The position numbers and the translations under genes are program-made. A DNA stretch of 12,913 nucleotides from an uncultured Clostridia bacterium (lineage in GTDB: Bacteria > Bacillota > Clostridia > Oscillospirales > Ruminococcaceae): positions 1 to 12,913 of the forward strand of contig CAMVBT010000034.1 in the NCBI GenBank assembly GCA_947165805.1, read 5' to 3'. This document shows positions 944 to 12,913 of this stretch, in pieces; positions within the stretch are counted from its first letter, which is position 1; the number at the start of each line of letters is the position of its first letter. A model generated the notes under the pieces. It was given only the letters and a program-made list of their open reading frames with translations. It searched no databases and was not told the DNA's origin.

Positions 944-1783
944 ATGGCAAAACTGATAGACGGAAAGGCAGTTTCACAGAAGGTCAAGGAAGAAGTACGC
1001 GCGGAGATCGAACGCGAAGGTCTCAAAGTAGGTCTCGCTGTCGTGATAGTAGGCAACGATCAGGCAAGCCGTGTGTATGTCAACAACAAGAAAAAGGCTT
1101 GCGAGGTCTGCGGCATACGCTCGTTCGAGTACGCTCTGCCCGAGGAGACTACCGAAAAAGAGCTTCTTGACCTCGTTGATACTCTGAACAATGATCCGGA
1201 AGTAAACGGCATACTTGTACAGCTCCCTCTTCCGAAGCATCTTGACTCCGAGAAGGTCATAGCGCGCATTTCGCCCGAAAAGGATGTTGACGCATTCCAC
1301 GCGGAGAATGTCGGAAAGATCATGATAGGCAATTATGCGTTCCTTCCCTGCACTCCCGCGGGCGTTATGGAACTGATACACAGCACAGGTACGGACGTTT
1401 CGGGAAAGGAATGTGTTGTAATCGGACGTTCCAATATCGTCGGCAAGCCTATGGCTATGCTGCTCCTGCATGAGAATGCTACCGTGACTATCTGTCATTC
1501 CCGCACAAAGGACCTTGCCGCGGTATGCCGCAGAGCCGATATACTTGTGAGCGCGGTAGGAAAAGCTGATTTTGTGACAGCCGATATGGTCAAAGAAGGT
1601 GCCGTAGTCATAGATGTTGGCATGAACAGAAACGCAGAAAACAAGCTGTGCGGAGACGTGAAGTTCGATGAAGTTGAGCCGAAAGTCTCATATATCACTC
1701 CCGTACCGGGCGGCGTAGGACCCATGACTATCGCTATGCTCATGAAGAACACACTTATGGCAAAACGTATACAGAGCAGATGA
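944..1783 (+). CDS. folD: Bifunctional methylenetetrahydrofolate dehydrogenase / methenyltetrahydrofolate cyclohydrolase
   Basis: FolD interconverts 5,10-methylene-THF, 5,10-methenyl-THF and 10-formyl-THF in the cytoplasm using NADP, supplying one-carbon units for purines and formyl-Met. The 279-residue length is normal. The catalytic YxxxK motif is Y45/K49 (YVNNKKKA). QLPLPKHL (93-100), KDVDAF (113-118), the PCTPAG block (135-140), the nucleotide-binding GRSNIVGKP (161-169) and PGGVGPMT (255-262) are all present and in order. KDVDAF has Ala where many family members have Gly. The ATG at 944 was chosen over an upstream in-frame TTG because AGGAGGG at 929-935 sits 8 nt before it and the protein then begins at the usual [10 protein letters not shown]. 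It starts 1 nt after lgt, and its stop overlaps the next gene's start, indicating a tight operon. Confidence 0.97.
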
Positions 1784-1992
1784 AAAAAGTAAATACTCCG
1801 CTGATAAACGGCATAATATTAGCCGCTGCATTTCTCTATCTTGCATGGTATTTCACGACTCACGGAATGTGGAATCCGGCTACTGTCATAGTTATGATCG
1901 TAATCGCTCTGTTATCGGCAGGTCAGATCATAATCTGGTTCATGTATTTCAAAACTCCCAAAAATTCAGGAAAAAGAAACAAAAAAGGTTGA
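1780..1992 (+). CDS. Small two-helix membrane protein, unknown function
   Basis: This is a 70-residue protein that I do not recognise. It has two hydrophobic segments, about residues 8-26 (IINGI-type start through LAWYF) and 34-56 ([12 protein letters not shown] through IWFMYF), joined by a short THGMWNP turn. It ends in a basic tail ([13 protein letters not shown]) that by the positive-inside rule should face the cytoplasm. The start codon overlaps the folD stop (ATGA at 1780-1783), and no separate ribosome binding site is evident, so translation is probably coupled to folD. The stop codon lies inside the -35 box of the rubrerythrin promoter. It may be a membrane-anchored helper for a neighbouring gene or simply a conserved small hypothetical protein. 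The overlap and clean hydrophobic pattern make it likely to be real. Confidence 0.75.
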
Positions 1993-2017
1993 CAAATACA
2001 CCCGCTGATGTTATAAT
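1989..2017 (+). promoter_or_regulatory. Consensus sigma-A promoter of rubrerythrin
   Basis: TTGACA (1989-1994) and TATAAT (2012-2017) are both perfect consensus hexamers separated by 17 nt. Transcription should begin near 2024, giving a leader of about 37 nt. The -35 box overlaps the stop codon of the upstream small gene, so rubrerythrin is set apart from the lgt-folD operon at this point. Confidence 0.9.
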
Positions 2018-2021
2018 ATAT

Positions 2022-2037
2022 TTGGCATATTTGCCAA
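2022..2037. promoter_or_regulatory. Perfect inverted repeat at the rubrerythrin transcription start (candidate operator)
   Basis: TTGGCA-TATT-TGCCAA is a perfect 6-bp inverted repeat with a 4-nt centre, beginning 4 nt after the -10 box. It covers the predicted +1, a position where a bound dimeric repressor would block initiation. It is not followed by a T-run and the stem is short, so an operator is more likely than a terminator. It does not match the PerR, Fur or Rex consensus as I know them, so the regulator is unknown. Operator function is inferred from position and symmetry. Confidence 0.55.
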
Positions 2038-2060
2038 TAATTTAACGGAGGATGTTTATT

Positions 2061-2594
2061 ATGGAATTAAAAGGCTCCAAGACCGAACAGAACCTTATGA
2101 CTGCTTTTGCAGGTGAATCTCAGGCACGCAACAAGTACACATACTTTGCGTCGGTAGCGAAGAAAGAGGGATATGAGCAGATAGCGGCTATCTTTGAAAT
2201 GACCGCAAACAACGAAAAGGAACACGCAAAAATGTGGTTCAAGGCTCTCGGCGAGCTCGGAACTACGGCGGAGAACCTCGCGAAGGCCGCAGAGGGCGAG
2301 AACTATGAGTGGACTGATATGTATGACCGTTTCGCCAAGGAAGCCGAGGAAGAGGGCTTCGTAAAGCTGGCTGCTCAGTTCAGAATGGTCGGTGCTATCG
2401 AAAAGAGCCACGAGGAAAGATACCGCGCGCTCCTCAACAATATCGAGATGCAGAAGGTATTTGAGAAGAGCGAGGAAACTATGTGGGAGTGCCGCAACTG
2501 CGGACATCTTGTTATCGGCAAGAAGGCTCCCGGCATCTGCCCTGTCTGTGGTCATCCGCAGAGCTTCTTTGAAGTAAGAAAAGAGAACTATTGA
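2061..2594 (+). CDS. rbr: Rubrerythrin
   Basis: Rubrerythrin is a cytoplasmic non-haem diiron peroxidase that detoxifies hydrogen peroxide in anaerobes. The protein is 177 residues long. The N-terminal ferritin-like four-helix domain (about 1-135) carries expected diiron ligands: E19 in FAGES, E52 and H55 in NEKEH, E94 and E97 in KEAEEEGF, and E114/H117 in AIEKSH. The C-terminal rubredoxin domain has C144-x2-C147 and C160-x2-C163 (ECRNC and ICPVC) for one iron. The ATG at 2061 is preferred to the in-frame ATG at 2052 because CGGAGG at 2046-2051 is 9 nt upstream of it and the family usually begins MELKG. It is a single-gene unit with its own promoter, candidate operator and terminator, which suggests regulation independent of its neighbours. 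Confidence 0.97.
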
Positions 2595-2606
2595 TCGTAA
2601 TACAGC

Positions 2607-2637
2607 AAAAGCCCGGCGTGATCTGCCGGGCTTTTTT
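2607..2637 (+). terminator. Rho-independent terminator of rubrerythrin
   Basis: GCCCGGC (2611-2617) pairs perfectly with GCCGGGC (2625-2631) around a 7-nt loop. The stem is extended by AAAA/TTTT to 11 bp and followed by a T-run (2632-2637). It lies 12 nt after the rubrerythrin stop. Confidence 0.92.
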
Positions 2638-2641
2638 GTAC

Positions 2642-2669
2642 AAAAAAGCTCCCAAAAAACCGGGAGCTT
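2642..2669 (-). terminator. Rho-independent terminator of the solute-binding protein gene
   Basis: AAGCTCCC (2646-2653) pairs with GGGAGCTT (2662-2669) around an 8-nt loop. Read on the minus strand the hairpin is followed by six T residues (complement of 2642-2647). It lies 10 nt past the minus-strand stop codon. The plus-strand side also has a weak T-rich tail, so it may back up the rubrerythrin terminator. Confidence 0.88.
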
Positions 2670-2679
2670 CTTGTTTTGA

Positions 2680-4188
2680 TTAACCGAGAGATGCGTTGAG
2701 CTCGTCTACCGATGCCTGGATAACATTTCCATATTCGGCGCGGGCGTTGGAGAATGTATTTGCGGAATCGTTGTAGGGATCCTTTACGATGTGGTCGATA
2801 GGAGCGGAACCGTCAGACTTTGCATTATCGGTGTCGATACCGGTTCTGAAGTCGAAGGAAGGAGTAAGAGGAGTGTTCTTGATGGAATAGAGCTGATCCT
2901 TGAACTGCATCTGTGTCTCTGTCCACTTTTCGTTCTCCATCTGCTGTGCTCTTGCGGCAGCCTGAACGTCTTCGTCAGCAAGAACGAGCATATTGCACTG
3001 TGTCCATGCCTTGTAAGCGTCAATGTTGGTGGAGCCGGAGCAGAGAGCGTAACCGAATACCTTGTAGCTGTGATAGTACTTGTCAGCCTTGGGATCCTTC
3101 GGGCACGGAACGAACATGATCTCGTCATAGTCCCAGCCGTACTTCTCGCAGTACTTGTGACCGTTGCCCTGATAGAACCAGAAACCATCGTCGAAGAAGA
3201 GCGTATCGCCGTTTACCCATGCCTTTTCGTTTACAGACCAGTTGTTCTCAACCAGCGGATAACGGTAATTCTGTGCGCAGAGCTCTGCGATAACAGCAGC
3301 AGCACGCTCAACGTTCGGGTCGTAGAGGTTGTTGACAACCTTGCCGTTTTCGATGCCTACGATCGGAACGCCTGTGGTCGAGAAGAGCAGAGACTGTATG
3401 TACCAGCCGTCGCAGACATACTTGTTCTCGCCTGTCTGCTGGAACTTGTCAGCCATATCCAGGAAAGCGTCCCATGTCCACTCACCGTTCAGGAACAGCT
3501 CATACGGATCCTGAAGGCCGGCTTCTTCGATTACGCTTCTCTTATAATAGAGAACCTGTGCGGGATAGAACTCGCAGGGAGCAAGGTAATGCTTGCCTGC
3601 CCATACGAACTGGTCGGAAAGCTCTCTCCAGCCGTCCCACTCGGAGCCGCTCATATCGATGATATCGTCGATATTCTGGAACATATTTTTGTATGCCGGA
3701 AGCGGGAATATATCATTCTCAAACGGGAAGATATCGGGAGCAAGGCCTGCGGAGATCGCGGTGCCGAGCTTGTCGTATCTCGCCTGATAGTCAACGACAT
3801 CGGATACTACTACAAAATCCTTTGTCTTGTCGGTAAGGAATGATGCGTATGCGTCGCTTATTCCCTCCGGTGTGCCGTACTTTGCCTTGAACAGCTCAAC
3901 TGCCGGCAGAGTGTTGTCGATCGTCCAGTTGCCCATAAATACGAGCTTCTGTGTAGGCTTGATAGTCTCGTCTACTTCAAGGTTAGCTACCGCGCCCTGA
4001 ACTTCGACATTGGTGTCATAGGTCTCACTTGCGAATACCGTAGTAGCCGCGGTAGTCGTCGCCGCAGCAGTGTCTGCAGTATTGGCTGCGCTGGGCTCTC
4101 TTCCCGTGTTCCCGCCGTTGCAGGAAGCAGTGGAAACGATTGCAGCGAAGGACAGAATCCCCGCCATGATCTTGTGGATCTTTCTCAT
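2680..4188 (-). CDS. Extracellular solute-binding lipoprotein, ABC sugar transporter type (family 1)
   Basis: This is a 502-residue lipoprotein that probably captures a carbohydrate outside the cell for an ABC importer. The signal peptide has a basic N-terminus (MRKIHKIM), a hydrophobic core and a lipobox-like STASC with lipidation expected on C23; T rather than L at -3 is slightly off consensus. An Ala/Thr-rich linker follows (about 32-55). The family 1 pattern is visible in GLAPDIF (about 148-154), the YYKRSVIEEAG segment (about 214-224), and DPYELF plus GEWTWDAF (about 227-242). The start at 4188 was chosen because GGAGGAA (4194-4200) lies 5 nt upstream and the signal peptide begins there; a longer in-frame opening would spoil it. 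No permease or ATPase gene is adjacent. It diverges from GH43, so its ligand may be an arabinose- or xylose-containing oligosaccharide, but that is inference. Confidence 0.88.
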   Translation of the reverse strand: MRKIHKIMAGILSFAAIVSTASCNGGNTGREPSAANTADTAAATTTAATTVFASETYDTNVEVQGAVANLEVDETIKPTQKLVFMGNWTIDNTLPAVELFKAKYGTPEGISDAYASFLTDKTKDFVVVSDVVDYQARYDKLGTAISAGLAPDIFPFENDIFPLPAYKNMFQNIDDIIDMSGSEWDGWRELSDQFVWAGKHYLAPCEFYPAQVLYYKRSVIEEAGLQDPYELFLNGEWTWDAFLDMADKFQQTGENKYVCDGWYIQSLLFSTTGVPIVGIENGKVVNNLYDPNVERAAAVIAELCAQNYRYPLVENNWSVNEKAWVNGDTLFFDDGFWFYQGNGHKYCEKYGWDYDEIMFVPCPKDPKADKYYHSYKVFGYALCSGSTNIDAYKAWTQCNMLVLADEDVQAAARAQQMENEKWTETQMQFKDQLYSIKNTPLTPSFDFRTGIDTDNAKSDGSAPIDHIVKDPYNDSANTFSNARAEYGNVIQASVDELNASLG

Positions 4189-4239
4189 TTTTGTTCCTCC
4201 GAATTTTGTTTTTTGGGGTTGGAAAACTTGCACGTTTTA

Positions 4240-4252
4240 TGCTTTTAAAGCA
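4240..4252. promoter_or_regulatory. Perfect inverted repeat in the leader of the solute-binding protein gene (candidate operator)
   Basis: TGCTTT-T-AAAGCA is a perfect 6-bp inverted repeat around a single base. It lies in the predicted 5' leader of the minus-strand gene, about 17-29 nt after its likely transcription start. The size and symmetry fit a LacI- or GntR-type operator, but no regulator gene is present and the match could be chance in AT-rich DNA. Confidence 0.35.
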
Positions 4253-4275
4253 CAAATCCGTCACTATACAAAAAT

Positions 4276-4304
4276 ATTATACACTTTATTATGCAGAAAA
4301 ACAA
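4276..4304 (-). promoter_or_regulatory. Probable promoter of the solute-binding protein gene
   Basis: On the minus strand TATAAT (complement of 4276-4281) is a perfect -10 box. Seventeen nt upstream is only a weak -35 match, TTGTTT (complement of 4299-4304). Transcription would start near 4269, with a leader of about 80 nt. The weak -35 suggests activator dependence or modest strength. Confidence 0.5.
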
Positions 4305-4333
4305 TTGACAATTTTAATAAATGATATTATAAT
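4305..4333 (+). promoter_or_regulatory. Consensus sigma-A promoter of the glycosidase operon
   Basis: TTGACA (4305-4310) and TATAAT (4328-4333), both perfect, are separated by 17 nt. Transcription should start near 4340, about 45 nt before the GH43 start codon. The -35 box directly abuts the -35 box predicted for the divergent minus-strand gene (4299-4304), so the two promoters may compete or share a regulator. Confidence 0.88.
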
Positions 4334-4384
4334 AATTTATGACATTTATATTAATATTCCACACAGGAAACAAAGAGGTTTTAT

Positions 4385-5875
4385 ATGAAATATCTAAACC
4401 CGGTAATAAAAGGCTTCTATCCCGACCCGTCGGTCTGTGAAGCTGACGGAAAATACTACCTTGCCGCAAGCTCGTTCCAGTATTTTCCCGGTGTGCCGCT
4501 GTTTGAAAGCGACGACCTTGTGAACTGGACGCAGTTCGGATATGCCCTTACGCGTCCTGAACAGGTGATGCTGGACAAAATAAACAGCTCCGGAGGCGTA
4601 TTCGCTCCCACGCTTCGTTATCACAACGGAAGGTTCTACATGGTAACTACCAATGACACCACCAAGCAGAACTTCTATGTATGGACGGACGATATCTACG
4701 GCGAGTGGTCGGATCCGGTATATGTCAATCAGGGCGGCATAGACCCTTCCCTTTTCTTTGATGACGGGAGAGTCTATTTTATAAGCAACTCGGTCTATGA
4801 CGGCGCTAAAAACGGGATCGTTCAGTGTGAAATAGATATATGTACAGGCAAAAGACTCACCGAGAGCAGATGTATCTGGACGGGTTCAGGCGGAAGATTT
4901 CTCGAAAGCCCGCATATGTATAAGATAAATGGGAAATATTATCTTATGGCTGCCGAGGGCGGAACTGAATATGGACACATGATAACCTACGCAGTCTCGG
5001 ACAGCCCGTGGGGCAGCTTTACCGGATATCCGGATAATCCTGTGCTCACAAACCGCAACAAGGCTCCGTACATTATACAGGGCATCGGACACGGCGATCT
5101 GATACAGGATAAGAACGACGACTGGCATATCCTGTGCCTCGGGTTCAGGCAGATGCACGAATGGATGCCTTTCCACCACCTCGGGCGTGAAGTGTTCCTC
5201 GTTCCCGTAACATTCGGCAGCGACGGTTGGTTCACGGCAGGACGGGACGGCACCTGTGACGAAGAATATGAGATCGCGGGCAATTCCGTACAGAACGAAA
5301 AACGTTCATACACCTTTGAAAATATGCTCTGGAACGTTGACTGGCAGTATCTCCGCAAGCCGAGCCCGGAAAATTATATATTTGAAAAAGATGGAATAAC
5401 CCTGATTGGGACTGATATTTCCCTTAACGATGTTGATTCGCCGACATTTATATGCACTCATCAGCGGGATTTCAGGTTTGAACTGAACGTGAACATTTCG
5501 GTGGACAAGGTAACCAACGACCTGTGTAAAGACGGTACCGAAGCGGGTGTGACTGTATTCCATGACGAGAACGAGCACTATGATATCGCGATAAAATACG
5601 ATGAGAGCGGATATTATGCCGCTCTGATACTCAATATTGGCGGCATTAACCATACTCAGGCCACCCTAAGGCTTGAAAAGAATTCGTGCGTATTCGGGAT
5701 AAAAGCCGATAATTACGGATACACGTTCCTTGCTGACGGGAAAGAACTCGGATATGGGGCTGCAAAATATCTGTCCTCCGAGGTTTGCGGAGGCTTTACA
5801 GGCACAGTGATCGGATTTTACGCGGTCGGAGGCATCAGAGCCTCTTTCAGCGATCTGGAAATAAAATACTTATAA
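4385..5875 (+). CDS. Glycoside hydrolase family 43 enzyme (beta-xylosidase / alpha-L-arabinofuranosidase)
   Basis: This is a 496-residue inverting glycosidase, likely removing xylose or arabinofuranose from oligosaccharides of arabinoxylan or arabinan. The N-terminal five-bladed propeller (about 1-290) holds the GH43 catalytic triad: D14 as general base in GFYPDPS, D120 in GGIDPS as the pKa modulator, and E174 in LESPHMYK as general acid. H236 in GIGHGD fits the conserved propeller histidine. The C-terminal part (about 295-496) has the SPTFICTHQ and GTVIGFYAVGG features of the beta-sandwich domain found in GH43 xylosidases. No signal peptide is visible, so the enzyme should be cytoplasmic. 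The start has AAGAGG at 4373-4378, 6 nt upstream. It is the first gene of an operon with GH27. Family assignment is firm; the choice between xylosidase and arabinofuranosidase is not. Confidence 0.92.
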   Translation: MKYLNPVIKGFYPDPSVCEADGKYYLAASSFQYFPGVPLFESDDLVNWTQFGYALTRPEQVMLDKINSSGGVFAPTLRYHNGRFYMVTTNDTTKQNFYVWTDDIYGEWSDPVYVNQGGIDPSLFFDDGRVYFISNSVYDGAKNGIVQCEIDICTGKRLTESRCIWTGSGGRFLESPHMYKINGKYYLMAAEGGTEYGHMITYAVSDSPWGSFTGYPDNPVLTNRNKAPYIIQGIGHGDLIQDKNDDWHILCLGFRQMHEWMPFHHLGREVFLVPVTFGSDGWFTAGRDGTCDEEYEIAGNSVQNEKRSYTFENMLWNVDWQYLRKPSPENYIFEKDGITLIGTDISLNDVDSPTFICTHQRDFRFELNVNISVDKVTNDLCKDGTEAGVTVFHDENEHYDIAIKYDESGYYAALILNIGGINHTQATLRLEKNSCVFGIKADNYGYTFLADGKELGYGAAKYLSSEVCGGFTGTVIGFYAVGGIRASFSDLEIKYL

Positions 5876-5893
5876 TATAAGGAGGACGAGATC

Positions 5894-7165
5894 ATGTTGA
5901 ATTTCACAAGGACAGCTCCTATGGGCTGGAACAGCTGGGACTGCTGGGGAGCGGCTGTAACGGAGGATACAGTAAAAAAGAACGCCGACTTTATAGCAAA
6001 GAATCTCAAACAGTACGGCTGGGAGTATGTGGTAGTGGATATACAGTGGTATGAGCCCACGGCGGAAAACCATGATTATCACCCGTTTGCCGAGCTCTCT
6101 ATGGACGGACATTCCCGCCTTATACCCGCAGAGAACAGATTTCCTTCCTCCGCGGACGGAAAGGGCTTTGCGCCGCTTGCGGAATATATACATTCCCTCG
6201 GACTGAAATTCGGTATACATATCATGCGCGGTATCCCGAGACAGGCCGTTCACCGCAATACGACCATAGCCGACAGCGACAAGACCGCCCGTATGATCGC
6301 AAAGACTGACAGCATCTGCAAATGGAATACAGATATGTACGGCGTTGACACTGCAAAAGAAGGCGCCAAGGCCTATTATGACAGCATTTTCAAACTCTAT
6401 GCCGAGTGGGGCGTAGATTTCATCAAGTGCGATGATATCGCCCGTGAACTGCCTGACTGCGAGGAAGAACTGAAAATGATAAGCGAGGCTGTAAATAACT
6501 GCGGCAGAGAAATGGTTCTCAGCCTGTCTCCCGGACCCGCTCTTCTTGAAAAAGCCGAGCTTTACAAACAGGTTTCAAATATGTGGCGCATAACAGATGA
6601 TTTCTGGGACAAGTGGGAGCTGCTCTACGATATGTTCGAGCGTGCCGAGAAATGGTGTACCCACACCGGTGCCGGTCACTGGCCGGACGCTGATATGCTG
6701 CCGATCGGCGCGATACTTCAGGATTACGGTCCCGACGGTAAAACAAAATTCACGGAAGAGGAACAGAAAACGATGATCTCGCTCTGGAGCATCTTCCGCT
6801 CTCCCCTGTTCATCGGCGGCGATCTGACAAAGTGCGATGATAATACTCTGAAACTTCTCACAAACTCCAAGATACTCGCTATGCACCGCAACTCCCGCGA
6901 CGCACATCAGGTATGGCGCAAAGAGATAAACGGCGTTGAGCATATACTGTGGAAAGCAAATAACATCGACGGCGGCGTATATGTTGCGGTATTCAATGTC
7001 GGTGAGGCTGACAGCAAGATCGAGATAAGCCTCCGTGATCTGGAAATACCGGCAGGCCAGTCCTGCACCGAGCTCTGGAGCGGTCTTAAGGCTCCGATCA
7101 ACGAAAAGATAAGCGTTCGCCTTGCTCCCCATGGCGCTAAGGTATTCAAACTCATCACCAATTGA
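5894..7165 (+). CDS. Glycoside hydrolase family 27 enzyme (alpha-galactosidase family; possible beta-L-arabinopyranosidase)
   Basis: This is a 423-residue retaining glycosidase. MGWNSWDCWG (10-19) is the GH27 N-terminal signature. The nucleophile is D180 in DFIKCDD, and the acid/base is D236, placed by the R-x3-D spacing in WRITDDFWD (R232 to D236). A TIM barrel occupies about 1-320 and a beta-sandwich the rest. Where classical alpha-galactosidases have an Asp-Asp-Cys-Trp motif that contacts galactose, this protein has D49-I50 in VVVDIQWYEP. I recall an Ile at this position being linked to preference for L-arabinopyranose in the Geobacillus enzyme Abp, so beta-L-arabinopyranosidase is a real alternative. 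No signal peptide is visible. AAGGAGG (5879-5885) lies 8 nt before the start, and the gap to GH43 is 18 nt, so the two are co-transcribed. Confidence 0.9.
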   Translation: MLNFTRTAPMGWNSWDCWGAAVTEDTVKKNADFIAKNLKQYGWEYVVVDIQWYEPTAENHDYHPFAELSMDGHSRLIPAENRFPSSADGKGFAPLAEYIHSLGLKFGIHIMRGIPRQAVHRNTTIADSDKTARMIAKTDSICKWNTDMYGVDTAKEGAKAYYDSIFKLYAEWGVDFIKCDDIARELPDCEEELKMISEAVNNCGREMVLSLSPGPALLEKAELYKQVSNMWRITDDFWDKWELLYDMFERAEKWCTHTGAGHWPDADMLPIGAILQDYGPDGKTKFTEEEQKTMISLWSIFRSPLFIGGDLTKCDDNTLKLLTNSKILAMHRNSRDAHQVWRKEINGVEHILWKANNIDGGVYVAVFNVGEADSKIEISLRDLEIPAGQSCTELWSGLKAPINEKISVRLAPHGAKVFKLITN

Positions 7166-8762: not shown

Positions 8763-9878
8763 ATGCTGCAATATGAAGAGATCATACTTGAATTTGAAGG
8801 TCTGAAGCCCCAGCTCGCAGACCTTAAGGCTGCAATAAACCCCGACGGACTGAAAAAGGATATCGCCGCTCTCGAGGAAGAGACCGCAAAACCGGATTTC
8901 TGGAACGACACCGAGAATTCGCAGAAGGTCTCCAGAAAACTCGGAGCGCTGAAAGCCAAGCTGGCGCAGTTTGAAAAGCTCAGCGAGAATTTTGAGGACG
9001 TTATAACAATGGCGGAGCTCGCTAATGAGGAAGAAGACGAGTCCATGCTCGCCGATGTCAAGGAGCTCGCAAATACAACAAAGACACAGCTTGAGGAGCA
9101 GAAGCTCATTACCCTGCTGTCCGGCGAATATGACTCGAAGAACGCCATACTCACCTTCCACGCGGGCGCGGGCGGCACCGAGGCGCAGGACTGGGTCGAG
9201 ATGCTTTACAGAATGTACAACCGCTGGGCAGAGCGCCACAATTTCAAGGTGTCGCTGCTCGACTACCTTGAAGGCGAAGAAGCCGGCATAAAGAGCGCTT
9301 CCATACTTATCGAAGGTCTTAATGCCTACGGTTTTCTCAAGTCCGAGAACGGCGTACACAGACTCGTGCGCGTTTCGCCGTTCGACGCTTCGGGCAGACG
9401 CCATACAAGCTTTGCCAGCCTTGAAGTAATGCCGGAAATTGACGAGGACACCTCCGTCGATATACGCCCCGAAGACCTCGAAATGGAAGTATATCGTTCG
9501 AGCGGCGCGGGCGGTCAGAAGGTAAACAAGACCAGCTCCGCGGTAAGACTCATTCACAAGCCCACAGGTATAGTGTGCGCCTGCCAGACCCAGAGAAGTC
9601 AGGTACAGAACCGTGAATACGCTATGAGAATGCTCATTTCCAAGCTTGTTGAGATAAAGGAAAGAGAACATCTCGAAAAGATCTCCGATATCAAGGGCGA
9701 ACAGCTCCAGATAGCATGGGGTGCGCAGATACGTTCCTATGTATTCATGCCTTATACCCTTGCGAAAGATCACAGGACGGGTTATGAAATGGGTAACATT
9801 CAGGCAGTTATGGACGGTGATATCGACGGTTTCATAAACGCTTATCTGAAGAGCAAGGCTCTTGAAAACAATGGTTAA
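8763..9878 (+). CDS. prfB: Peptide chain release factor 2, continuous frame
   Basis: RF2 reads UAA and UGA stop codons and triggers peptide release on the ribosome. The 371-residue protein has an N-terminal helical domain (about 1-110), the stop-codon recognition tripeptide SPF (205-207), which marks RF2 rather than RF1, and the catalytic GGQ (250-252) inside SSGAGGQKVN. AGAGGTEAQDW (134-144) is also characteristic. The gene reads as one continuous frame from a start with AAGGAG 7 nt upstream (8750-8755). The in-frame UGA and +1 programmed frameshift found early in many bacterial prfB genes, including E. coli, is absent here: the region around residues 20-47 aligns by eye with the shifted E. 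coli region without a break. The last 8 nt overlap the next gene, so translation is probably coupled. Confidence 0.97.
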   Translation: MLQYEEIILEFEGLKPQLADLKAAINPDGLKKDIAALEEETAKPDFWNDTENSQKVSRKLGALKAKLAQFEKLSENFEDVITMAELANEEEDESMLADVKELANTTKTQLEEQKLITLLSGEYDSKNAILTFHAGAGGTEAQDWVEMLYRMYNRWAERHNFKVSLLDYLEGEEAGIKSASILIEGLNAYGFLKSENGVHRLVRVSPFDASGRRHTSFASLEVMPEIDEDTSVDIRPEDLEMEVYRSSGAGGQKVNKTSSAVRLIHKPTGIVCACQTQRSQVQNREYAMRMLISKLVEIKEREHLEKISDIKGEQLQIAWGAQIRSYVFMPYTLAKDHRTGYEMGNIQAVMDGDIDGFINAYLKSKALENNG

Positions 9879-11220
9879 AAACGATATAATACCGCTGCGG
9901 ATAGAAAGCATCACAAACGAAGGAGCCGGTGTGGGACGATATGAAGGAATGGTCGTTTTCGTTCCTTTCGCCGCCGTTGGTGATGAATTGGAAGTCCGTA
10001 TCGTAAAGACTTCCGGCAGCTATTGCTACGGTAAGATCGAAAATGTAATACTCCCCTCCCCCGGCCGCGTTTCGCCCGACTGCACCGCATTCGGCAAATG
10101 CGGCGGCTGTGTATTCAGGCATATTTCGTATGAGGCGGAGCTTGAAGCCAAGACAGAAATGATACGCAGCGCGTTTACAAGGATCGGCGGACTTGACCCG
10201 GAATTTCTGCCTATAACACCGAACAGCAGTATCAAAGGCTACCGCAACAAGGCGCAGTATCCCACAGGACGGGACAAGGACGGAAATATAGTATGCGGTT
10301 TCTTTGCGCAGAGAAGCCACCGTATCGTTCCCTGTGAAAGCTGTATGCTTGAACCGCCTGTATTCGGTGAGATAAGACAGACTGTGCTTGATCTTGTCAG
10401 GGAGCTCCGGGTCTCGCCTTATAATGAGGAACAGCATAACGGCGTACTGCGTCACATCTGCATACGAAAAGGACATTATTCCGGAGAGATAAACGTGGTA
10501 CTCGTCGTCCGCAGGAATGTGCCGGAGCTGAAAAAGATCGCGGCGTCGCTCGCGGATAGATTTCCGGATATACGCGGAGTTGTCGCGAACATAAATAAAG
10601 ATAAAACCAACGTTATTTACGGCGAAGATGATATCGTACTTTACGGAAGACCCGAGATAACGGACACTATGCTCGGAAAGAAATTCACGATATCACCGAA
10701 GTCTTTCTATCAGGTGAATACGCCAATGGCAGAGCAACTGTATACCGAGGCCGCAAAACTCGCGGAGCCCGACGGCAAGACGCTGATCGACCTGTACTGC
10801 GGCATAGGCACAGTGGGACTCACAATGGCAGACAGAACGGAAAAACTTATCGGAGTCGAGATCGTTCCGAGTGCCGTTGAAAACGCGAGAATAAACGCCG
10901 GACTGAACGGATTTGAAAACGCTGAATTTTACCTTGGCGATGCCGGAAAAGTCACTTCCCTGCTGCGCGGCAGGAACATCAGAGCAGATGTAGTAACTGT
11001 CGATCCGGCAAGAAAGGGCTGTGATACGCAGACACTTGACAATATTGTTTCGTTTTCGCCCGAACGGATAGTTATGATATCATGCGAACCTGCTACCGCC
11101 GCGAGGGACTGTAAATATCTCGGGCAGCACGGGTATAAGACTGTCAGCGTCCGCGGAGTCGATCTTTTCAGCAGGACAAACCATGTCGAAGCAGTCATCT
11201 TACTGTCCCGTGGATCATAA
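9871..11220 (+). CDS. rlmD: 23S rRNA (uracil-C5)-methyltransferase, RlmD/RlmCD type
   Basis: This SAM-dependent enzyme makes 5-methyluridine in 23S rRNA (U1939, and in some Gram-positives also U747). From the ATG at 9871 it has 449 residues. An N-terminal TRAM domain (about 1-60, with the EGAGVGRYEG motif) binds RNA. The iron-sulfur cluster cysteines are C71, C77 and C80 (CTAFGKCGGC) plus C155 (PCESC). The SAM loop is DLYCGIGTVGL (about 307-317). The nucleophile is C405 in MISCEPATAARD, and E440 in NHVEAV is the conserved general base. The ATG overlaps prfB by 8 nt; a TTG at 9862 is in frame but less likely. No strong binding site precedes it, consistent with coupling to prfB. Whether one or two uridines are modified cannot be told from sequence alone. 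Confidence 0.93.
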   Translation: MVKNDIIPLRIESITNEGAGVGRYEGMVVFVPFAAVGDELEVRIVKTSGSYCYGKIENVILPSPGRVSPDCTAFGKCGGCVFRHISYEAELEAKTEMIRSAFTRIGGLDPEFLPITPNSSIKGYRNKAQYPTGRDKDGNIVCGFFAQRSHRIVPCESCMLEPPVFGEIRQTVLDLVRELRVSPYNEEQHNGVLRHICIRKGHYSGEINVVLVVRRNVPELKKIAASLADRFPDIRGVVANINKDKTNVIYGEDDIVLYGRPEITDTMLGKKFTISPKSFYQVNTPMAEQLYTEAAKLAEPDGKTLIDLYCGIGTVGLTMADRTEKLIGVEIVPSAVENARINAGLNGFENAEFYLGDAGKVTSLLRGRNIRADVVTVDPARKGCDTQTLDNIVSFSPERIVMISCEPATAARDCKYLGQHGYKTVSVRGVDLFSRTNHVEAVILLSRGS

Positions 11221-11241: not shown

Positions 11242-12913
11242 GTGCAGATGATAGTCTGGATATGTGCCTTATTGATCGGTACAGGTTTCTTTACAACAGG
11301 CATAGTTTATATCTTCCGCAAACAGGGCAGGCGCGAAGTCCATTATGCGCTTGCCGCATTTCTGGAATTTATGTCCAGCTGGATATTGTATATCCCGCAT
11401 GAGGTATACAATGATATTCCCGGATCACAGCCCGTACTAAAGTGGATCGAAAGTGTTTTTACAGCGTTGCTGAAAAGCTTCAATGTTTATTCCGGAAACG
11501 GATATGAACGAGCGGCTTATACAGACGATGCTGTTTTTTCCAGTGTTTATAACTTGTTCAGAGTTTTGGCAAATATAGCGCTCCTTCTGTTTGTAGGCGG
11601 TTTTATTCTCAAATTCCTTAACGGTCCGCTTCAAAGATTTAAATTGATATTTTACAGAAAAAGATACTTGTATGTCATGTCCGCCTGCAATGAAAAGACC
11701 CTTATTTTAGCAAAAAGCATCTTGGACAAAAAAGAACACAAGAAAACACTTGTAGTATTTTCCTGCGGTGATCAAAGTCCGGAGGCAAGTCAAAGAGAAC
11801 AGCTCGATCTCATGAAAGCTCTTTATGTAGACTGTTCGGTCACCGATATTATAAGAAAATATTCGGCAAAAGCCGAGGGAATGGAAATTTTTCTTTTTGA
11901 AGATAAGGAGGAAAATAACCTCGTTCTGCTGAGATCCGTTTGCACAGAACTTGAAAAAACGAAAAATGACGGTGTAAAGATATATGTTGAACTGACAGAA
12001 ACACCATGGGATATGTATGATAATTATGTTGAGCGGTATGGTCTTGGAAACAGGAACATAATCATCAATTTTGTCCGTGTTGAAGAGGCGTTTGTATATA
12101 GTGAACTGCTGAAACGTTCTGTTTTTGAAAAGGCTGCCGAAAGAGAAAATGAAAATGTCAAAGATATCCGTGCGATTATTGTGGGCGGAATGAACGCCCG
12201 CAATCTCGAGATGTTAAAAGCGCTTCTTCATCTGTGCCAAATGCCCGGATATTACCTTGATCTGACAGTTATCGAAGACGGTCACGGAAGGTCTATGCTC
12301 AGACAGCTGATGCCGGAAGTATATGATGAAAGTGATCGTGTCGGAGACGCCGTTTACAAGCTGAACTATATCGAGGGCATAGATTATTGTTCTGAAAAAT
12401 TTGAGCAGACATTGGCAACAGAATGTTCCGATCTCACTTTTGCGTTTATAAACGCGGGCGATGATCTCACGAATGTCAATCTTGCGCTGAAGGTAAAAGC
12501 TATAGCCTGCAGAAAAGGCCATGAAACAGATAAATATACACTTCTGGTCAATATACTGAATAAGGGTATCTGGGAAAACTGGAATAAAGAACTCTGCAAT
12601 GGTATCGTACCTGTAGGCTGTAAGGAAGAAACCTATAATTATGATTTTGTGACTTATTCAGACATTGAGCAAGCTTCGGAAAAGATCCATATTGCGCGGC
12701 ATGGTTCCACAAAATGGATAAGCTATCTTAATAACGAGTATAACCGTCATTCGGTATTTGCAAGAACACTGAGCTATAAATATAAGATCAGGATACTCGG
12801 TGACCGTTACAGCCTTGCCGGAAGGCCGTCAGAGATAGAATGGCATACCGAAGAAGAACTCATAAGGAATTGGGAGTCGATGTCAGATGAAGAAAAACTC
12901 TGGAAAGCATATG
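11242..12913 (+). CDS. Membrane protein with two Rossmann/RCK-like domains, probable TrkA-N/RyR type, 3'-truncated by window edge
   Basis: This frame stays open for 557 codons to the last base of the window, so the C-terminus is missing. The GTG at 11242 is preferred (GAGG at 11228-11231, 10 nt upstream), with ATG at 11248 as an alternative. Hydrophobic segments lie at about 4-24, 33-52 and 105-126. A first Rossmann-like unit starts at about 144 (LYVMSACNEKTLILAKS), and a second at about 309 (IRAIIVGGMNARNLEMLK). Both resemble TrkA-N/RCK domains, though the glycine loops are degenerate. The region NEYNRHSVFARTLSYKYK (about 498-515) and the end WESMSDEEKLWKAY resemble the lead-in to a RyR-type domain, whose EHxRW motif would fall just past the edge. 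That reading is from memory. It lies 21 nt after rlmD without a visible promoter or terminator and is more AT-rich than the genes before it. Confidence 0.8.
   Translation, partial: MQMIVWICALLIGTGFFTTGIVYIFRKQGRREVHYALAAFLEFMSSWILYIPHEVYNDIPGSQPVLKWIESVFTALLKSFNVYSGNGYERAAYTDDAVFSSVYNLFRVLANIALLLFVGGFILKFLNGPLQRFKLIFYRKRYLYVMSACNEKTLILAKSILDKKEHKKTLVVFSCGDQSPEASQREQLDLMKALYVDCSVTDIIRKYSAKAEGMEIFLFEDKEENNLVLLRSVCTELEKTKNDGVKIYVELTETPWDMYDNYVERYGLGNRNIIINFVRVEEAFVYSELLKRSVFEKAAERENENVKDIRAIIVGGMNARNLEMLKALLHLCQMPGYYLDLTVIEDGHGRSMLRQLMPEVYDESDRVGDAVYKLNYIEGIDYCSEKFEQTLATECSDLTFAFINAGDDLTNVNLALKVKAIACRKGHETDKYTLLVNILNKGIWENWNKELCNGIVPVGCKEETYNYDFVTYSDIEQASEKIHIARHGSTKWISYLNNEYNRHSVFARTLSYKYKIRILGDRYSLAGRPSEIEWHTEEELIRNWESMSDEEKLWKAY

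Follow-up and report, generated by a model that had tools for sequence, protein, structure and literature searches.

The window analysed here is a stretch of 12,913 nucleotides, contig C34 (CAMVBT010000034.1) of an uncultured Clostridia bacterium of the Ruminococcaceae, whose draft genome comprises 2.50 Mb in 354 contigs and is 80% complete. At its right-hand end lies the unfinished gene that is the subject of this report, which encodes a membrane protein with two RCK-like Rossmann units and a RyR-type domain (the TM-RCK-RCK-RyR gene, TM standing for transmembrane). Its features are collected in Table 1, with coordinates counted in the window and residues numbered as in P0001, a 671-amino-acid full-length protein that has its ATG start (M1) at 11248 and that a protein search found to be 100% identical across the window portion.

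Table 1. The TM-RCK-RCK-RyR gene, its parts and its upstream neighbour in the window.
Feature	Coordinates	Strand	Basis
TM-RCK-RCK-RyR gene, 557 of ~673 codons in window	11242..12913	+	open reading frame; P0001; remainder on C240:6-371
Membrane helices 1 (residues 2-24) and 2 (residues 30-55)	11251..11412	+	AlphaFold2 model, moderate confidence
Helix 62-82 followed by SGNGYE, where K+ channels have their pore helix and filter	11431..11508	+	AlphaFold2 model
Membrane helix 3 (residues 95-125), predicted to connect to the RCK ring as the inner helix of a channel does	11530..11622	+	model; hhalign
First RCK-like Rossmann unit (residues ~139-290), glycine loop lost	11662..12117	+	AlphaFold2 model, fold comparison
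Second RCK-like Rossmann unit (residues ~305-470)	12160..12657	+	AlphaFold2 model, fold comparison
Start of C-terminal RyR-type domain, NEYNRHSVFARTLS helix to WKAY	12736..12913	+	profiles, alignments
RNA (uracil-5-)methyltransferase with TRAM domain, housekeeping, outside the system	9862..11220	+	Pfam tRNA_U5-meth_tr E 2e-22, TRAM E 4.4e-8

A split gene amid housekeeping genes

The open frame (11242-12912, forward strand) begins with GTG, runs for 557 codons and is still unclosed where contig and window end. The remaining 120 or so codons lie in the same genome on contig C240 (6-371), so that the frame of at least 557 codons reported in an earlier note on this DNA is completed by both P0001 and C240. 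That note had also proposed beforehand that an EHxRW motif be sought within about 30 residues of the window end, and in P0001 EHMRW directly follows WKAY, that is, it starts with the first residue past that end. The edge of C240 reads YVHMRW where P0001 has YEHMRW, a mismatch at a contig start that looks like edge noise or strain variation.

The methyltransferase frame stops 21 bases ahead of the GTG start, and beyond the gene end C240 carries hisE and then polC, both on the opposite strand (4.36 kb of this contig were examined). The window copy is thus a lone gene amid housekeeping genes; the suggestion that it might be the first gene of a larger system to the right did not hold, and a larger defence system was rejected within those 4.36 kb. 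The G+C content of the gene (0.41, compared with 0.49 in the remaining window) suggests that it arrived recently. Farther upstream (2052-7165), inspection by eye found ordinary genes, namely those for a rubrerythrin-like protein, an ABC solute-binding protein, and GH43-like and alpha-galactosidase-like enzymes.

Gating ring, RyR domain and potassium channel kin

Structure comparison of the predicted AlphaFold2 model of P0001 reveals the fold of a tandem RCK gating ring, with nucleotide-bound TrkA structures among the structural matches. The two Rossmann/RCK-like units previously proposed thus stand by fold, but not by profile, as neither the window protein nor P0001 matches Pfam TrkA_N; their glycine loops are degenerate as described, being absent from unit 1 (YVMSACNEKT) and reduced in unit 2 to VGGMNARN. 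Where about three N-terminal hydrophobic segments had been expected, the model places three membrane helices (2-24, 30-55 and 95-125) and a fourth helix at 62-82, while a 19-residue hydropathy scan yields two peaks only (2-20 and 106-124), helix 2 failing. The GNGYE-type motif that follows the fourth helix is frequent, although not invariant, in the rows of alignment A1, and Y86 is kept in at least 90% of them.

Scanned with Pfam alone, the window protein matched neither TrkA_N nor RyR; profile methods were needed to recognize the RyR domain. Searched against the PDB, a profile built from 18 sequences of the C-terminal domain (A4) retrieved six distinct sequences at E <=10, each of them annotated as ryanodine receptor or as RyR domain (E 7.7e-9 for the best; matches spanning the C-terminal half of the domain), and its profile-profile comparison (hhalign) with A5, an alignment of 17 RyR domains taken from the genomes of relatives, reached E 8.2e-11 with EHxRW aligned. 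The relative at locus L034 clears the Pfam RyR cut-off outright (34.1 bits). Membrane helices, tandem RCK-like units and a RyR domain, the architecture put forward in the earlier note, are accordingly borne out by the model, the fold comparison and the RyR profiles; of the two marks on which that note had staked itself, EHxRW/RyR is present and RCK likeness is seen by fold, though not by the TrkA_N profile.

The predicted pocket residues, H557, W560, H639 and D656, are encoded beyond the window end and are kept in 33 of the 34 rows with letters there (P0010 has Q at H639; P0034, which lacks the pocket region, was left out of the count); by eye, the aspartate is present in 15 of the 17 rows of A5. 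In RyDEP, a phage RyR protein, ADP-ribose is held by H75, W78, H100 and D117, the first and last of which form a catalytic dyad, and phage RyR domains are described as binding cyclic ADP-ribose-type signals (PMC13232231). The window family likewise has HxxW and a step of 17 residues (H639-D656), with H557 and D656 as conserved counterparts of the dyad. Such conservation does not imply catalysis, since in the same study none of the other homologues tested cleaved signals, while 6 of 8 tested bound them (PMC13232231). Separately, contig C146 of the source genome (L001) carries a stand-alone RyR gene of 97 amino acids (1486-1779), located 19 bases before a TIR-TM-MORN gene (1799-3268), and two comparable short RyR genes, L049:2555-2836 and L056:2218-2502, each neighbour a TM-RCK-RyR gene; these are possible sponges or regulators.

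Through RyR matches in relatives' genomes, two proteins were reached that combine a TTVGYGD pore, a Rossmann-like middle and a RyR end (L062:91-1665 and L067:73-1680). A search for further K+ channel-RyR relatives returned 430 matches at E <=0.001, the 120 best of which include proteins with precomputed Pfam Ion_trans_2 and often also RyR annotations (e.g., P0036). Alignment A2, built from 36 K+ channel-RCK-RyR proteins, matches PDB entries 6uwm, a voltage-gated K+ channel that we take to be KvAP (E 2.5e-21), and 6uhi, a RyR1 chimera (E 1.2e-17), and hhalign pairs it with the window family (E 2.9e-20) in an alignment of 416 columns that starts at the third membrane helix and extends to the RyR end. 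By these profile comparisons both Rossmann units and the RyR domain are homologous in the two groups, and the end of the inner helix aligns from residue 100 on in the full-length comparison; the K+ channel proteins likewise have EHxRW and an aspartate 17 residues after the histidine (H+17D), with pocket residues in 35 of 36 A2 rows. They keep TTVGYGD, however, whereas the window family has an SGNGYE-type motif and one additional N-terminal helix. Although GNGYE falls near the TVGYGD register when the membrane part is compared together with the start of the RCK ring (E 1.9e-7), the membrane part alone gives no significant match to K+ pores (E 0.072; reversed controls 0.012 and 0.009); homology is thus claimed for the ring and the RyR end only, the pore being alike in position.

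Neither P0036 nor the other K+ channel-RyR members tested match a PADLOC family, and in NCBIfam they match K+ channel models below cut-off only. A scan of viral contigs with A2 gave 193 loci, of which 80 were retained; the best segment of each of the 80 fell in query residues 1-134, the pore, and these hits thus represent generic K+ pores that are uninformative on RyR. RyR proteins with a pore degenerate by eye (L059:286-1797, with 1-279; L064:208-1707, with 1689-3170) each have a TIR-like gene that begins no more than a few bases away or overlaps them.

TIR genes beside relatives and elsewhere in their genomes

Thirty loci of relatives were examined, from Lachnospiraceae, Ruminococcaceae and their kin and mostly from metagenome assemblies, 12 of them with less than 3 kb of sequence on one or both sides. 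A TIR_2 domain, checked in each case by open-frame length, lies within 3 kb in 13 of the 30 (L006, L008, L010, L014, L015, L017, L019, L022, L023, L024, L026, L028 and L034), compared with the 1% per locus predicted by the TIR density of the genomes (129 TIR_2 matches over 79.4 Mb) and with 3 of 82 control TrkA_N genes of the same genomes (Fisher p 1.2e-6). Clustering at 60% identity leaves 21 clusters of loci, 9 with TIR. In eight cases the two genes are immediate neighbours on one strand and either overlap or are separated by less than about 110 bases: L008, L010, L015 (18), L017 (77), L019 (23), L024, L026 (95) and L028.

The TIR neighbour at L008 passes Pfam ThsB_TIR (26.0 bits, 21.2 required), and several others give weak PADLOC ThsB matches (best E 2.3e-7). 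One glutamate is kept in all 16 aligned TIR rows (14 neighbours from the 13 loci and two from the source genome, the second TIR matches of L026 and L028 being left out), a column that presumably marks the catalytic position of TIR NADases. At L012 the neighbour is TIR-like by eye without a Pfam call, and at L021 it is a DUF4062 gene; DUF4062 is a TIR-like NADase family (PMC13174449). DUF4062 also occurs near RyR genes at L058:1938-2792 (Pfam-confirmed) and L091:2570-3148 (by eye). Upstream on the other strand, L013, L014 and L023 share conserved genes that resemble, by eye, those for a vWA protein, a PP2C-type phosphatase and a kinase.

Many of the TIR neighbours belong to one family, in which a degenerate TIR-like domain (by eye) is followed by a canonical TIR and a Sel1/TPR tail; eight rows of this partner family make up alignment A3, and L037:665-2032 shares the layout. 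The source genome carries a partner-type TIR on contig C169, 20-34% identical to other A3 members (its 566.9 bits against A3 follow by construction, the gene itself being an A3 row), and two further TIR_2 genes, one cut by a contig end. Partner TIRs of at least 220 bits occur in 15 of 30 carrier genomes, or 9 of 24 without the six A3 seeds. Across 299 genomes of one family, a RyR protein match was found in 15, a strong partner (>=220 bits) in 9 and both in 5, where an overlap of 0.45 is expected (p 1.8e-5); the RyR protein is patchy, occurring in 15 of 299 and 20 of 295 genomes.

Proposed function, rival explanations and known systems

Given its gating-ring-type build, its RyR domain and the TIR genes beside many relatives, the window protein probably senses signal molecules made by TIR enzymes, and we lean, if only slightly, toward regarding it as a membrane receptor or effector for a nucleotide signal that such enzymes derive from nicotinamide adenine dinucleotide (NAD). 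In the working envisaged, which would be Thoeris-like with an ion-channel-type effector, a TIR enzyme activated, probably by phage, would convert NAD+ to ADP-ribose or one of its cyclic isomers; this product would be bound by the RyR domain, binding would rearrange the RCK ring, probably a tetramer, and the ring would pull on the third membrane helix, so that a non-canonical pore might open or the membrane be otherwise disrupted and growth of the infected cell would stop. A broader and more tentative proposal, which we hold to be possible at somewhat less than even chances, is that bacterial RyR-gated ion channels in general serve as effectors of TIR immunity, with ADP-ribose or its cyclic form opening the channel via the RCK ring, one branch having kept a true K+ filter and that of the window having changed it.

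Several observations weigh against these readings. No TIR gene adjoins the gene at its own locus (upstream side of the window and 4.36 kb of C240), and the partner TIR on C169 is halted by an in-frame TAG after 455 codons, the frame resuming beyond; the TAG could be genuine or an artefact of assembly, and this gene is thus at best a candidate partner. Among the 30 loci, 17 (8 with incomplete flanks) have no TIR called by Pfam within 3 kb, and in a distant set of 19 genomes only 3 of 22 genes have a TIR that close, one of them at 1.3 kb in G280, a genome of the same genus as that of the window; this count used 40 of 76 TIR rows, those omitted being, by eye, either over 20 kb distant or on a different contig. 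Two of the five genomes counted as having both match A1 weakly or in part (G751, 20.6 bits; G868, 38.9 bits), a stricter cut leaves three shared of 9 and 9 (p 0.0015), and the co-occurrence test ignores the kinship of the genomes, a group centred on a carrier. As to the protein, P0001 has no Pfam RyR match and its relative P0003 scores 14.9 of the 27.4 bits required; the TxGYG selectivity filter is absent from the window family, with SGNGYE-type sequence in its place; the membrane part does not match K+ pores significantly; and the predicted local distance difference test of the model is 52-56 over residues 81-120. P0001 matches no PADLOC family, known Thoeris effectors included, and no NCBIfam family.

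The rival that survives best, although we consider it unlikely, is a housekeeping regulator of ion flux, whose RyR and RCK parts would sense ATP, ADP or NAD and tune the flow of K+ or other ions, TIR genes being nearby by way of variable islands. The nucleotide-bound TrkA structures among the matches and the housekeeping setting of the window copy are consistent with such a role, as is the proximity of TIR to control TrkA_N genes, somewhat above the 1% expected; the 13 of 30 loci with TIR, eight of them adjoining on the same strand, the patchy distribution and the low G+C content of the gene argue against it. Rather unlikely, too, is a relative of the K+ channel-RCK-RyR proteins that conducts nothing and acts as a membrane-anchored receptor recruiting or activating the TIR enzyme. 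The absence of a canonical filter, the low-confidence membrane model, the pore likeness that is non-significant alone, and the TPR or LRR parts of TIR neighbours, which could dock, would suit this proposal, but the helix at the entry to the RCK ring can be aligned with its counterpart in true channels and a GNGYE-type motif recurs, if not in every row, at the filter position. A membrane-tethered glycosidase or sponge that removes the TIR product and so limits autoimmunity is improbable: H557 and D656 do match the RyDEP dyad and the stand-alone RyR genes at L049 and L056 could be sponges, but the other homologues tested alongside RyDEP did not cleave, while 6 of 8 tested bound the signals (PMC13232231), and a sponge would need neither gating ring nor membrane helices.

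The architecture is already visible in databases, since P0018 carries the RyR name from UniRef and the K+ channel kin carry both Pfam domains. A known defence family was sought and rejected, the window protein and P0001 having no match in PADLOC and P0001 and P0018 none in NCBIfam. Burroughs and colleagues reportedly discussed RyR in prokaryotic conflict systems (Nucleic Acids Research, 2015). A bacterial RyR channel with TIR was not found in the literature searched, and absence from print is not claimed. Should the proposal of a TIR-signal receptor be correct, the protein would be a host receptor for TIR-made signals, would extend the effectors of TIR immunity to an ion-channel type and could hint at the origin of the animal arrangement; TIR-to-channel signalling would become testable in simple cells, at a time when it is still debated whether cyclic ADP-ribose acts on ryanodine receptors by way of their RyR domain. 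The broader proposal of RyR-gated channels would, if correct, represent a new type of TIR signalling and a bacterial counterpart of animal cyclic ADP-ribose-ryanodine receptor signalling.

Several known systems invite comparison. The gating rings of CASTOR/DMI1, GsuK, BK and TrkA are about 7-14% identical to the window protein, which differs in its degenerate glycine loops and its added RyR domain. With RyDEP (PF02026) it shares a RyR domain detected by profile and the H/W/H/D pocket residues with their spacing, but RyDEP proteins are phage counter-defence proteins, whereas the window protein is a membrane protein of a bacterium and has an RCK ring (PMC13232231). Animal ryanodine receptors similarly place a RyR domain (Repeat12) on a channel-type protein, yet have another pore and another overall architecture, at about 5000 amino acids. 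Thoeris, in which a TIR enzyme, a NAD-derived signal and an effector act together, is approached by TIR genes adjoining a putative nucleotide-sensing effector in the relatives; the window family departs from it in having no PADLOC-listed effector, in using RyR as the putative receptor domain and, at the window's own locus, in standing without a TIR gene.
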